Below, one piece after another: positions 3,241 through 21,142 of a stretch of 64,000 nucleotides of DNA. The DNA comes from Bacteroidales bacterium (GTDB taxonomy: Bacteria; Bacteroidota; Bacteroidia; Bacteroidales; JAADJA01): assembly GCA_020052415.1 (NCBI GenBank), contig JAGVPB010000048.1, positions 1-64,000 on the forward strand. The letters are read 5' to 3'. Within the stretch, counting starts at the first letter, position 1. Each line of letters starts with the position of its first letter. The notes under the pieces are model-generated. The model was not told the DNA's origin and searched no databases. It saw only the letters and a program-made list of their open reading frames with translations. The translations under genes and the position numbers were made by a program.

Positions 3241-3495
3241 CTCCTATAATGTCTCGTTTTAACTTTACATCAGACGGACAAGATGGTGGATTCGAAATCC
3301 CGTAATTCCTACAGCCCGGGATCGTTTCTGTCATCCGGGCAGTAAGCGATTACATTAAAATATTTAACCCGGATTAAATCAATCATCGTAACTTAATTGC
3401 TTTACCAATCCTGTGCATGAATTCCGTCTGGACCATGTCAGCCGGTTAAATAATTCTTTATTAAATGAACCATATTAAAAGAAATTGGTTAATTT

Positions 3496-13752: not shown

Positions 13753-15495
13753 TTATAATCCCAAATCCTTTATTATCGCATCAATCCTTTTGTCGAGAAA
13801 AGCGTTCATTTCATCAAACTTCTTTATATCCGTGAAATCTTCCCTGACACTGAAATAATATTTTATCTTCGGCTCAGTGCCGGACGGCCTTACTGAAATC
13901 TTGCCTCCGTCCATCAGGAAAAACTGCAGTACATCGGATTTGGGCAGGCTGATCTTTTCTTCGGTATGTTTTTCCAGATCGAAGGTCATTTGCCTGAGAT
14001 AATCCTTAATCATGATCACCGCTGAGCCATTGATAGCCTTCGGCGGATCAGAACGGTATGTCTCCATCATTTTCTTTATTTCTTCAGCGCCCTCCTTTCC
14101 TTTTCGAGTAATGGAGGCGAGCCTTTCTTTATAAAATCCGTATTGAAGATAGATTTCCGGCAGGAGTTCATACAGTTTTTTTCCCTTTTCAGCAGCCCAG
14201 GCAGCACACTCCGCTATCATACAGCATGCACTCACGGCATCTTTATCGCGCACAAAATCCCCGATCAGAAAACCATAGCTTTCTTCTCCGCCACCGATAT
14301 ACTGCTTTTTGCCTTCATTCTGCCTGATGATCTCTGCAATGTATTTGAATCCCGTAAGTGTATCGAAATATTCAACTCCGGATTTAACAGAAATATCCCT
14401 GAGGATTTCGGAGGTTACTACCGTTTTAATAGTAAATTCCCTGCCTGTGAGCTTGCCGTTCTCTTTCCATTTGGTAAGCAGATAATAGAGAAGCAGAGTA
14501 GCTGTCTGATTTCCGTTCAACAGGATAAACTCGTTTTTATCATTCAGAACCGCCACCCCTACCCTGTCGGCATCAGGATCGGTAGCTAAAACAAGACTTG
14601 CATTTACCTGCTTTGCTTTTTCAATGGCCATGTTCAAAGCTGCCGGCTCTTCAGGATTGGGCGATTTTACGGTGGGAAAATTACCATCTGGGATATCCTG
14701 TTCAGGAACATTAAAAACATTTTTGAAACCGTAAGCTTTCAGCCCTTCGGGAACGAGCTTTGCCCCTGTCCCGTGAATAGGAGTATAAACGATTTTCAGG
14801 TCGCTGTGTTTTCTTATGCTTTCTGGTGAAAGTGATAATCCTTTAACTCTCGAGATGTATTCCTTATCAATCTCAGCCCCTATGATTTCAACTAAAGAAT
14901 CATTTCGCTTAAATTTTATTTCGGAAATATTCCTGATCTTCAGAACTTCACCGATCACATTTTTATCATGCGGATTGATAAGCTGTCCGCCGTCTTCCCA
15001 ATAGGCTTTATAACCATTATACTCCGGAGGATTGTGAGATGCCGTGATAACAACACCCGCCTGGCAATGCAGATGCCTTATGGCAAACGACAGTTCGGGA
15101 GTGGGCCTCATATCATCGAAAAGGAAAACTTTGATTCCGTTTGCCGACATCACATCAGCAGTAATGCCTGCGAAAAAAGTATTGTTCCGCCTGGAATCGA
15201 AGGCAACAGCAATTTTAATTTGTTCCCGGCCGGGAAACATCTTTTTAAGATAATTGGCAAGTCCCTGCGTAGCTGCACCAACGGTGTACTTATTCATCCG
15301 GTTCGTACCAACGCCCATAACGCCCCTCAATCCGCCGGTACCGAATTCGAGGTTGGTGTAAAAAGCATCGGTGAGTTCTTTAGGATCATTTTCCATCAGG
15401 TCTTTAACCTTTGCTTTCGTTTCCTCATCGTAATCTCCTTCGAGCCAAACCTTTGCTCTTTCAAGGATATGCGGGTCAATCACAGTATTTGTCAT
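13753..15495 (-). CDS. phospho-sugar mutase (phosphoglucomutase/phosphomannomutase)
   Basis: Interconverts sugar-1- and sugar-6-phosphates to feed glycogen, nucleotide sugars and cell wall. At 580 residues it has the usual length of the long bacterial phosphohexomutases. The phosphoserine loop TASHNP has catalytic Ser153, the metal loop is ATDPDADRVG near 284-293, the sugar loop is GGGEESYGF near 381-389, and the phosphate loop is SVRPSGTEPKIKYY near 535. All four loops are intact. Its 3' end faces the + strand array in a convergent arrangement, with a 147-base gap. The substrate choice (glucose or mannose) cannot be read from sequence. Confidence 0.93.
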   Translation of the reverse strand: MTNTVIDPHILERAKVWLEGDYDEETKAKVKDLMENDPKELTDAFYTNLEFGTGGLRGVMGVGTNRMNKYTVGAATQGLANYLKKMFPGREQIKIAVAFDSRRNNTFFAGITADVMSANGIKVFLFDDMRPTPELSFAIRHLHCQAGVVITASHNPPEYNGYKAYWEDGGQLINPHDKNVIGEVLKIRNISEIKFKRNDSLVEIIGAEIDKEYISRVKGLSLSPESIRKHSDLKIVYTPIHGTGAKLVPEGLKAYGFKNVFNVPEQDIPDGNFPTVKSPNPEEPAALNMAIEKAKQVNASLVLATDPDADRVGVAVLNDKNEFILLNGNQTATLLLYYLLTKWKENGKLTGREFTIKTVVTSEILRDISVKSGVEYFDTLTGFKYIAEIIRQNEGKKQYIGGGEESYGFLIGDFVRDKDAVSACCMIAECAAWAAEKGKKLYELLPEIYLQYGFYKERLASITRKGKEGAEEIKKMMETYRSDPPKAINGSAVIMIKDYLRQMTFDLEKHTEEKISLPKSDVLQFFLMDGGKISVRPSGTEPKIKYYFSVREDFTDIKKFDEMNAFLDKRIDAIIKDLGL

Positions 15496-15657
15496 AATTG
15501 TAAATTGTTTAAATGAAATGAAGAATGCAAAATTATCTAATTTTCAAAAAACATTCGCGAATTCGCGGCAAACTTGCGGAATAATATTTTGATGTGCAGG
15601 CATTGTTTTACTGATAATTTTACCTTGCAAATATGATCAAATTAAACCACGGTCACC

Positions 15658-15817
15658 TTGCCCGTAGGGCAAAGATATTCATAGAAACGAACGATACCTG
15701 AAACGGATTTCCCATAGGGAATCAACATCCTGAAAAATGAAGTTTTTGTTTATGTCCTACGGACAATTTGAAACTGTTAAACAAAATAAATCTATTGATA
15801 TTGAAGCCCAACGGGCT
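15658..15817. repeat. series of four regularly spaced short hairpins
   Basis: TTGCCC-GTA-GGGCAA (15658-15672), TTCCC-ATA-GGGAA (15709-15721), TGTCC-TAC-GGACA (15753-15765) and AGCCC-AAC-GGGCT (15805-15817). Centres are about 50, 44 and 52 bases apart. Each has a 5-6 base stem and a 3-base loop but a different stem sequence. No gene lies in this 447-base gap. Confidence 0.7.
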
Positions 15818-15898
15818 AAAAAATACTAATATTCCTAACATCAAACGAAGATAAAAAATTCTATCAAGTTAAATTTGATGACCTTCATTTTTCAGGAT
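15727..15898. repeat. 16-base perfect inverted repeat
   Basis: ATCCTGAAAAATGAAG at 15727-15742 is the exact reverse complement of CTTCATTTTTCAGGAT at 15883-15898. The arms enclose 140 bases that include two of the short hairpins. It could be the ends of a very small non-autonomous element or a long-range RNA stem. A weak promoter-like TACCTTG (15621-15627) precedes the region. Confidence 0.65.
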
Positions 15899-15942
15899 AA
15901 TTTTTTTTGAAGCACATCAAAATAAGATTTAGCCCGTACCAG

Positions 15943-16812
15943 TTAATTTCCCGATGTCAAATTCGCAATGCATATCTTCAGGCTGGCATCCCACCGCGGA
16001 ATTTGAATACCGAATTTCTGTTTGATTTTATCCTTGCTCAGGACGCTGTACATCGGTCGGGCAGCAGGTGTCGGATAATCTGTCGTTGGAATCGGAAATA
16101 CCCTGCAGTTTAAATGACTTTCTTCAATAATGGCCTTTGCAAATTCGTACCAGTTAATGATCCCTTCATTCGAATAATGGTAAATCTCAGGCTTGCCGGG
16201 AACAGGATGTTTTGAAATTATGTCAAGGATAACTTTTGCAAGATCTCCGGCGTAGGTTGGTGTTCCTGTTTGATCGGAAACAACTTTTAATTCTTCCCTT
16301 TCGCTTGCCAGCCTTTTGATGGTTTTAACGAAATTACTTCCGTATTCCGAGTACAACCATGAAGTACGTAATATCATTGCCCTGCAGCCGGATTCGATCA
16401 CGTTGACTTCCCCCTGATGCTTGGACTTTGCATACACCGAAACCGGATTCGGCTGATCGGATTCCGAATACGGCTTGCCGGCTTTCCCGTCAAACACATA
16501 ATCGGTAGAAATATGGATCAGCGAAATTCCGAGCTCTTTTGACAAACCGGCAAGATTCTTTACTGCAACGGCATTGATCAGCATAGCTTTTTCTGTTTCT
16601 TCTTCTGCTTTATCTACCGCAGTGTAAGCCGCACAGTTGACAATTACATCCGGACGGTTCTTACGGATAAACCCTGAAAGCGCTACTACATCCGTAATAT
16701 CGAGATCATTAATGTCAATATAAAGGAAATTCAACCCGGGATATAATCCAGCCAGATTGCGAATAGACAATCCTAATTGTCCGTCAGCGCCCGTTACCAA
16801 AATTTTCTTCAT
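15943..16812 (-). CDS. rfbD: dTDP-4-dehydrorhamnose reductase
   Basis: SDR-family reductase that makes dTDP-L-rhamnose, or a closely related NDP-deoxysugar, from the 4-keto precursor; 289 residues. It starts MKKILVTGADGQLGLSIRNLAG (NAD-binding GxxGxxG). It carries the family hallmarks NCAAYTAVDKAEEE near 61-74, ISTDYVFDGKAGKPYSESD near 102-120, the catalytic Tyr-x3-Lys YAKSKHQGE near 129-137, and RTSWLYSEYGSNFVKTI. It starts 8 bases after the decarboxylase gene, so both probably serve one surface polysaccharide pathway. rfbA, rfbB and rfbC are not in the window. Confidence 0.92.
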   Translation of the reverse strand: MKKILVTGADGQLGLSIRNLAGLYPGLNFLYIDINDLDITDVVALSGFIRKNRPDVIVNCAAYTAVDKAEEETEKAMLINAVAVKNLAGLSKELGISLIHISTDYVFDGKAGKPYSESDQPNPVSVYAKSKHQGEVNVIESGCRAMILRTSWLYSEYGSNFVKTIKRLASEREELKVVSDQTGTPTYAGDLAKVILDIISKHPVPGKPEIYHYSNEGIINWYEFAKAIIEESHLNCRVFPIPTTDYPTPAARPMYSVLSKDKIKQKFGIQIPRWDASLKICIANLTSGN

Positions 16813-20855: not shown

Positions 20856-20950
20856 TGCAAACGGCTATCAAATGTCATTCCTTTGCGAATTTAAGGATAA
20901 TTTGGCAGGTTGGTGAAATCGGTAGATTCGTGAAATTCGTGTAATTCGTG

Positions 20951-21142
20951 GACTGAATTGGTTGAACTGGTAAATTCGTGACATTCGCGTAATTCGTGGA
21001 CTGAATTGGTTGAATTGGAAAATTCGTGACATTCGTGTAATTCGTGGACTGAATTGGTTGAACTGGTAAATTCGTGACATTAGTGTAATTCGTGGACTGA
21101 ATTGGTTGAACTGGTAAATTCGTGACATTCGCGTAATTCGTG
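20951..21142. repeat. 48-bp tandem repeat, four full copies plus partial flanks
   Basis: Units begin at 20951, 20999, 21047 and 21095. Each reads GACTGAATTGGTTGAAC.. followed by TGGTAAATTCGTGACATT and CGTAATTCGTG, with few substitutions. Partial or decayed copies lie at 20906-20950 and 21143-21183. Because 48 is a multiple of three, the minus strand stays open, but the resulting 16-residue repeated peptide looks artefactual. The same sentence-like motif recurs at about 56,728-56,766. Confidence 0.9.

Follow-up and report, generated by a model that had tools for sequence, protein, structure and literature searches.

A probable two-layer mobile element in an intergenic region of a Bacteroidales genome, with ISL3-type ends around hairpins that once flanked a Y1 transposase gene

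Y1 transposases and the palindromes that surround them have been described in several systems, and these provide the closest comparisons for a 360-bp intergenic element in a 64,000-nucleotide stretch of a Bacteroidales genome (GenBank assembly GCA_020052415.1, contig JAGVPB010000048.1; hereafter the window). Insertion sequences (ISs) of the IS200/IS605 type combine a ~150-amino-acid Y1 transposase with hairpins on both sides, and are recognised by having neither terminal inverted repeats (TIRs) nor a target duplication. In REPtrons, which join repetitive extragenic palindromes (REPs), bacterial interspersed mosaic elements (BIMEs) or REPINs to a REP-associated tyrosine transposase (RAYT), inverted short palindromes stand around the Y1 gene and gene-less copies occur elsewhere in the genome. 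TnpA-Y1 proteins of subclass 1.2, of about 148-150 amino acids and found in Bacteroidota, carry the signature Y---Q--HH, DH[IV]H and WQ and are tabulated as lacking REPs in the available part of their description (PMC6006769), while in TIRtrons (TIRYT) the Y1 gene is flanked by TIRs with the common motif GGGGWSAS (PMC3733652, available part). Miniature inverted-repeat transposable elements (MITEs) and mobile insertion cassettes of the ISL3 type (ISAon1 group) are short and have no transposase of their own. Comparison with these systems suggests that the element in the window is most likely a mobile element that is non-autonomous, has an internal deletion and combines two layers: it would be a MITE whose ISL3-type ends enclose the hairpins of a Y1 transposase gene since lost.

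The initial annotation of this region, made from the letters of the window alone, had described four hairpins with 3-base loops at regular spacing and an exact 16-base inverted repeat enclosing two of them, in a region explained by no reading frame. All of these features were confirmed at their reported positions (Table 1): the centre-to-centre distances of the hairpins are 50, 44 and 52 bases, hairpins 3 and 4 lie inside the repeat, and no open reading frame (ORF) of at least 80 amino acids covers the hairpin region. The hairpins and the inverted repeat exceed chance expectation. With a 3-base loop, a stem of at least 5 and at least three G/C in the arm as the criterion, 4 of the 25 loop-3 hairpins in the window cluster inside 160 bases, dinucleotide shuffles of the element gave a mean of 0.00 such hairpins against the 4 observed (30 shuffles), and the folding z-scores of the region are -4.8 on the plus strand and -5.5 on the minus strand. 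Among the eight copies compared, only the window copy has an exact 16-base repeat; in the compared register its arms agree at 15 of 16 bases, as against 13 for one sibling and between 8 and 11 for the remaining six. The suggestion that the hairpins form one structural series is supported. They make up two mirrored pairs: in siblings the loop of hairpins 1 and 2 is mostly GTA on the plus strand and that of hairpins 3 and 4 mostly TAC, which reads GTA on the minus strand, and the window loops of hairpin 2 (ATA) and hairpin 4 (AAC) are single-base departures from these. Only ordered quartets are informative; a loose pattern, KYCCNTAGGRM, was rejected as an enriched signal after giving 83 matches against 196 for its reversed control.

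The hairpins belong to a larger unit, of which they form the core; it extends beyond the limits first reported and is bounded by 23-bp TIRs. When positions 15640-15945 were searched against the window's own genome, 19 matches including the query itself were returned, five others being near full length at 82-90% identity; together with the lack of an ORF of at least 80 amino acids, these copies give the window element the traits of a MITE. The TIR pattern, at up to 3 mismatches, occurs at 23 sites in the same genome and its reversed control at none. Left ends on contigs C17, C63 and C65 and right ends on C32, C70 and C71 are each 98-99 bases away from the end of a contig, which resembles a multi-copy repeat breaking the assembly, and by eye the bases outside them pair as 8-bp duplications for C17 with C32 and C63 with C71, leaving C65 and C70 unpaired. 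A target duplication with a fixed length of 8 bp is common in the TIR family but not recognisable at the window copy: the 49 candidate TIR pairs found, reduced to 45 distinct ones once alternative pairings were collapsed, include 15 with all 8 flanking bases alike and eight with 7 of 8 alike (23 together), as compared with 0.2% at 7 of 8 and none at 8 in a cross-paired control of 2,344 pairings. Two neighbouring copies on contig C9 have a TIR broken at the same place by a palindromic insert of ~20 bases, TCCAAAGGAGTCCAATGGAC-like by eye (L021, ~3280-3320, and the left end of L005). The gene between two copies on C55, considered as a candidate transposase, encodes instead a sigma-54-dependent response regulator.

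The source of these TIRs is indicated by two longer elements. L231, a 1527-bp element whose TIRs are exact matches to the pattern, has the duplication AGATTTAG, and L181 (1510 bp) is a second intact-looking IS; their main proteins match DDE_Tnp_ISL3 with E-values of 4e-33 and 5e-38, respectively, and the N-terminal protein of L231 exceeds its model cut-off. In genome G058, C-terminal pieces of the transposase start a few bases inward of a variant TIR. The TIR pattern of the window thus also bounds autonomous relatives, as is expected of a MITE, and a scan with one TIR form through named genomes found at least 116 stretches, mostly titled Bacteroidales or Bacteroidetes, although such titles are unsafe as taxonomy. 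IS1595 (PF12762) was discarded as a source, having 0 matches in the window's own genome. In their matching ends, in the 8-bp duplications of siblings, in their small size and in the lack of their own transposase, the window element and its relatives resemble ISL3-type MITEs and mobile insertion cassettes; they differ in that the interior of the window copy is not derived from an IS and is instead the quartet that surrounds Y1 in siblings, and in that other elements with such TIRs carry GxxExxY genes. The ends are also unlike those of TIRtrons, with GGCT..TTTTGATGTGC here in place of the published motif, and the available description of TIRtrons does not connect them with any DDE insertion sequence (PMC3733652).

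The inner layer is identified by what siblings hold in the slot between hairpins 2 and 3. Whole Y1 genes lie within the same TIRs in four elements (L021 on C9 of the window's own genome, L105/L107, L108 and L113), and Y1 fragments in L009, L082, L106 and L202. L108 has a window-like quartet, in the same order and at nearly the same spacing, with its Y1 gene on the minus strand between hairpins 2 and 3, and in L386 a Y1 relative 84% identical to the L108 gene stands between matching hairpins 1 and 4. The same slot contains 35 codons of a Y1 gene start, at 66% identity, in L009 (C46 of the own genome) and a longer fragment in L106. As siblings keep a whole or truncated Y1 gene at this place, the window copy appears to be an internally deleted derivative; a further gene-less derivative, ~1 kb from the Y1 element on C9, joins bases before the start codon to the last codons (by eye). 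By a strict criterion, the 8 Y1 entries (7 distinct elements) have a mean of 2.6 hairpins against 0.12 in shuffles, and the 29 entries without a recognised gene a mean of 1.6. A pattern search beside seven loci of the Y1 family in the own genome found no window-type hairpins, and other hairpins are present there.

The same TIRs enclose other contents as well. GxxExxY (PD-(D/E)XK-like) genes or fragments occur within them in L088/L112, L114, L158, L167, L243 and L251, and may represent mobile cargo; exact 8-bp duplications surround L088/L112 and L167, and in L083 a GxxExxY gene or fragment adjoins a single TIR. At 181-548 of L011 (C12 of the own genome), part of a GIY-YIG gene (Pfam E 6e-13) abuts hairpins 3 and 4 and the right TIR, and is either a gene cut by the insertion or cargo. 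Elements of 0.68-0.82 kb with duplications at 7-8 of 8 bases and no recognised gene are found at L241 4584-5405, L156 538-1311, L185 838-1514 and L157 6666-7471. Such variety of contents would suit a purely ISL3-type MITE in which the hairpins would be filler without a role and the Y1 gene would be there by accident, particularly as the five scored GxxExxY entries have zero strict-criterion hairpins and other fillers are empty. We consider this explanation unlikely, because the quartet also exists without TIRs and because, across the order, hairpins flank Y1 genes that have no such TIRs.

Evidence for quartets without TIRs comes from L010, L014, L018 and L019, which share the core from hairpin 1 to hairpin 4 with L004 at scores of 56-74 (shuffle maximum 16), and whose 100 bases on each side of the core are at shuffle level in similarity to L004 and to each other. 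With a common core and unrelated flanks, the quartet seems to have dispersed without TIRs too. L008 behaves in the same way but retains weak TIR-like sequences with 6 mismatches on each side, and decay of old TIRs is an equally good reading of this copy. Within the genus, the quartet core was found only in the window's own genome (14 matches) and in G005 (3). The initial annotation had named the lack of stem-preserving substitutions, together with the lack of a transcript, as refuting its reading. Such substitutions exist, the stem of hairpin 3 changing from GTCC/GGAC to GCCC/GGGC in L018 and that of hairpin 4 from GCCC/GGGC to GTCC/GGAC in L014, but they are few within the family, and the stem of hairpin 1 is broken in L006 and L013, the latter lying outside the comparison of TIR-less cores and flanks.

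The association of hairpins with this type of Y1 gene extends through the order. The Y1 proteins P0004, P0006 and P0007 all carry Y---Q--HH, DH[IV]H and WQ, the subclass 1.2 signature, and of 119 genomes in the order, 65 have a match to a model built from three sequences. From roughly 150 listed loci, 90 were chosen, not at random (an initial 30, to which 40 strong matches and 20 weaker ones were added), and classified via tblastn with the subclass called from the signature; 85 have Y---Q--HH. Among the 75 Y---Q--HH loci with both 300-bp flanks, G/C-rich hairpins are present on both sides in 51 and on at least one side in 71, as against both sides in 4 of 66 control pairs taken 700-1000 bp away, and the mean per flank is 2.19 at Y1 loci and 0.29 in controls (Fisher p 5e-15). 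Both-side counts by locus group are 19/24, 24/35 and, for weaker matches, 8/16. An identical 5-base stem arm occurs upstream and downstream in 42 of 56 Y1 loci, compared with 9% between loci, and the loops are mirrored, with GTA, GAA, GTTA and GTCA standing to their mirror set as 75:18 upstream and 24:68 downstream, for loop sets picked after the tallies were seen. When up to 5 mismatches are allowed, only 3 of the 90 loci, the C9 element among them, lie within a TIR pair. Hairpins are therefore the general partner of the Y1 group and the TIR form a local addition. TIR forms other than that of the window were sought only in a search for any inverted repeat with a duplication around 29 of 30 Y1 loci, the other being too short, and this was set aside, as it returned mostly the hairpins themselves at scores of 18-26 (null maximum 22). 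The Y1 loci L300, L319, L320, L345 and L365 have near-identical hairpins in long arrays, as many as 10 of them in the 300 bp of a single flank.

These results place the Y1 group between described systems. The proteins agree in signature, length (about 150 amino acids) and host phylum with subclass 1.2 and differ from its available description in the mirrored hairpins that lie on both sides of most scored loci, where REPs had been tabulated as absent (PMC6006769). As in REPs and BIMEs, palindromes stand around the Y1 gene (L108, L386) and are dispersed, here as TIR-less quartets in the own genome; the proteins fall outside the RAYT family, however, P0004 and P0007 scoring 22.9 and 26.4 bits against a REP_Tyr_transpos cut-off of 80 and P0006 giving no match. 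Further differences from REPtrons are a conserved GTA in the loop with no GTAG tag at the foot (TT precedes hairpin 1), a low copy number, and the location of some copies within ISL3-type TIRs. The IS200/IS605 NCBIfam cut-off is exceeded by P0006 and P0007 and missed by P0004, and the elements depart from that type in their mirror-image hairpin pairs and in the TIRs and 8-bp duplications of the TIR-bounded copies.

The published TIR-flanked Y1 genes (PMC3733652, available part) and the four whole Y1 genes inside TIRs reported here raise a further explanation, in which Y1 is itself the enzyme that recognises the TIRs and moves them, as proposed for TIRYT. Y1 transposition is not known to duplicate its target, yet duplications are frequent around TIR pairs, and these TIRs are also the ends of an ISL3-type IS and of elements that lack Y1, so that we regard this explanation as very unlikely.

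Table 1. Features of the element and their positions in the window
Feature	Coordinates	Strand	Basis
Whole element, 360 bp	15575..15934	.	Homology to own-genome copies up to both TIRs; extra relative to 10 relative loci
Left TIR, 23 bp	15575..15597	+	2 mismatches to TIR pattern, outermost bases degenerate
Hairpin 1, TTGCCC-GTA-GGGCAA, loop GTA	15658..15672	+	Sequence pattern
Hairpin 2, TTCCC-ATA-GGGAA, loop ATA (most siblings GTA)	15709..15721	+	Pattern, aligned copies
Slot separating hairpins 2 and 3, filled in siblings by a Y1 transposase gene, complete or truncated	15722..15752	-	L108, L009, L106
16-base inverted repeat, left arm	15727..15742	+	Exact only in window copy, 8 copies compared
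Hairpin 3, TGTCC-TAC-GGACA, loop TAC (GTA on minus strand)	15753..15765	-	Sequence pattern
Hairpin 4, AGCCC-AAC-GGGCT, loop AAC (most siblings TAC)	15805..15817	-	Pattern, aligned copies
16-base inverted repeat, right arm	15883..15898	-	Exact only in window copy, 8 copies compared
Right TIR, 23 bp	15912..15934	-	1 mismatch to TIR pattern

The neighbours of the element are genes for an RmlD-type reductase (15943-16812, minus strand) on one side and for a phosphoglucomutase-type enzyme (13753-15495, minus strand) on the other, both assigned by Pfam, and the corresponding interval in relatives was examined for empty sites. Fifteen reductase loci were available from the genus, one being the window and four having no phosphoglucomutase match in the stretch; in the other ten (nine genomes) the two genes are adjacent, separated by 25-163 bases in eight and by 320 and 674 in two, as compared with 447 in the window. 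In none of these ten loci was a TIR-like site with fewer than 5 mismatches found between the genes. Empty-site loci of the kind that the initial annotation had proposed to look for thus exist, and its suggestion of a small non-autonomous element is supported, the unit being gene-less, bounded by TIRs, present in further copies in its own genome and absent from these relatives. Another of its proposals, a structured RNA, here taken as such an RNA or a cis-regulatory leader acting on the phosphoglucomutase gene, accords with the orientation of both flanking genes, which lie on the minus strand through the element, and with the minus-strand folding score, but is the least likely of the explanations considered and far less likely than a mobile-DNA relic, because the element is missing from the ten relative loci, its copies are scattered elsewhere in the genome, a scan of 15450-16000 gave no Rfam match at threshold (two sub-threshold, chance-level matches to families named after eukaryotic RNAs), and promoter-like (2 against 2.1 expected) and terminator-like sites (1 against 0.5) are at about chance. 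If transcribed, the hairpins may have a putative effect on read-through into the phosphoglucomutase gene. Elsewhere in the window, at 20868-21128, an ORF translates into a tandem MSRIYQFNQFSPRIT-like unit and is, by eye, probably a DNA tandem repeat and not a gene.

Several observations weigh against the two-layer interpretation. On the side of the TIRs, 22 of the 45 distinct pairs, the window copy included, match at no more than 6 of 8 flanking bases, and the flanks of the window copy itself match at 2 of 8, so that it has no recognisable target duplication; L181 also has none, its flanks agreeing at 2 of 8. The main transposase protein falls below the ISAon1 model cut-off (198 against 250 bits), and no ISL3-type transposase was detected in the own genome or in 16 genus-mates, which are drafts 65-97% complete. 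The relatives with empty sites are distant, their reductases being only 49-59% identical, and the non-coding flanks are consequently not alignable base by base. On the side of the hairpins, no remnant of a Y1 gene was detected in the slot between hairpins 2 and 3 of the window copy, some Y1-bearing TIR elements are short of hairpins by the strict criterion (none in L082, which holds a fragment, and one in L113), and hairpins are rarer at the weaker Y1 loci of the order.

The mechanism that we propose for the two layers would involve both enzymes. The outer layer, with its ISL3/ISAon1-like TIRs, would most likely have been moved in trans by a DDE transposase of that type, generating 8-bp target duplications, while the inner layer is the mirrored quartet, with hairpins 1 and 2 on one strand and 3 and 4 on the other, which in siblings flanks a Y1 gene (HUH, IS200-like, of the subclass 1.2 type); in the window copy this gene would have been deleted from the slot between hairpins 2 and 3. 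The Y1 enzyme most likely recognises the REP-like hairpins as single-stranded DNA and may move hairpin-bounded pieces, or the quartet, on its own; the earlier suggestion of a protein-binding array may accordingly be retained in the narrower sense of likely Y1 recognition sites. In the lineage of the window, the array would have come to lie inside ISL3-type TIRs and been spread further by the ISL3-type enzyme in trans, and loss, rather than gain, of the Y1 gene would have left the present copy. This order of events, the past action of either system on the window copy and mobility in general are putative, as read from sequence comparison. No description of such a union of ISL3-type TIRs with Y1 hairpins was found in the open-access literature, as covered by titles and the starts of abstracts. 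More tentatively, and with somewhat less than even confidence, we suggest that subclass 1.2 Y1 proteins, hitherto described without insertion-sequence features, could be the enzymes of widespread Bacteroidota hairpin-array elements, in which mirrored hairpins stand on either side of the gene and quartets without a gene would spread by themselves; in some lineages the arrays lie inside ISL3-type TIRs and would have two independent routes of movement.

With this interpretation, an unexplained intergenic hairpin series becomes legible as the relic of a mobile element. It also provides candidate substrates for a Y1 group that was tabulated without REPs in its one describing paper, making the activity of these enzymes directly testable. 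Finally, the TIR family of Bacteroidota described here encloses varied small genes (Y1, GxxExxY) with no DDE transposase of its own, and may offer a spreading route for such genes.
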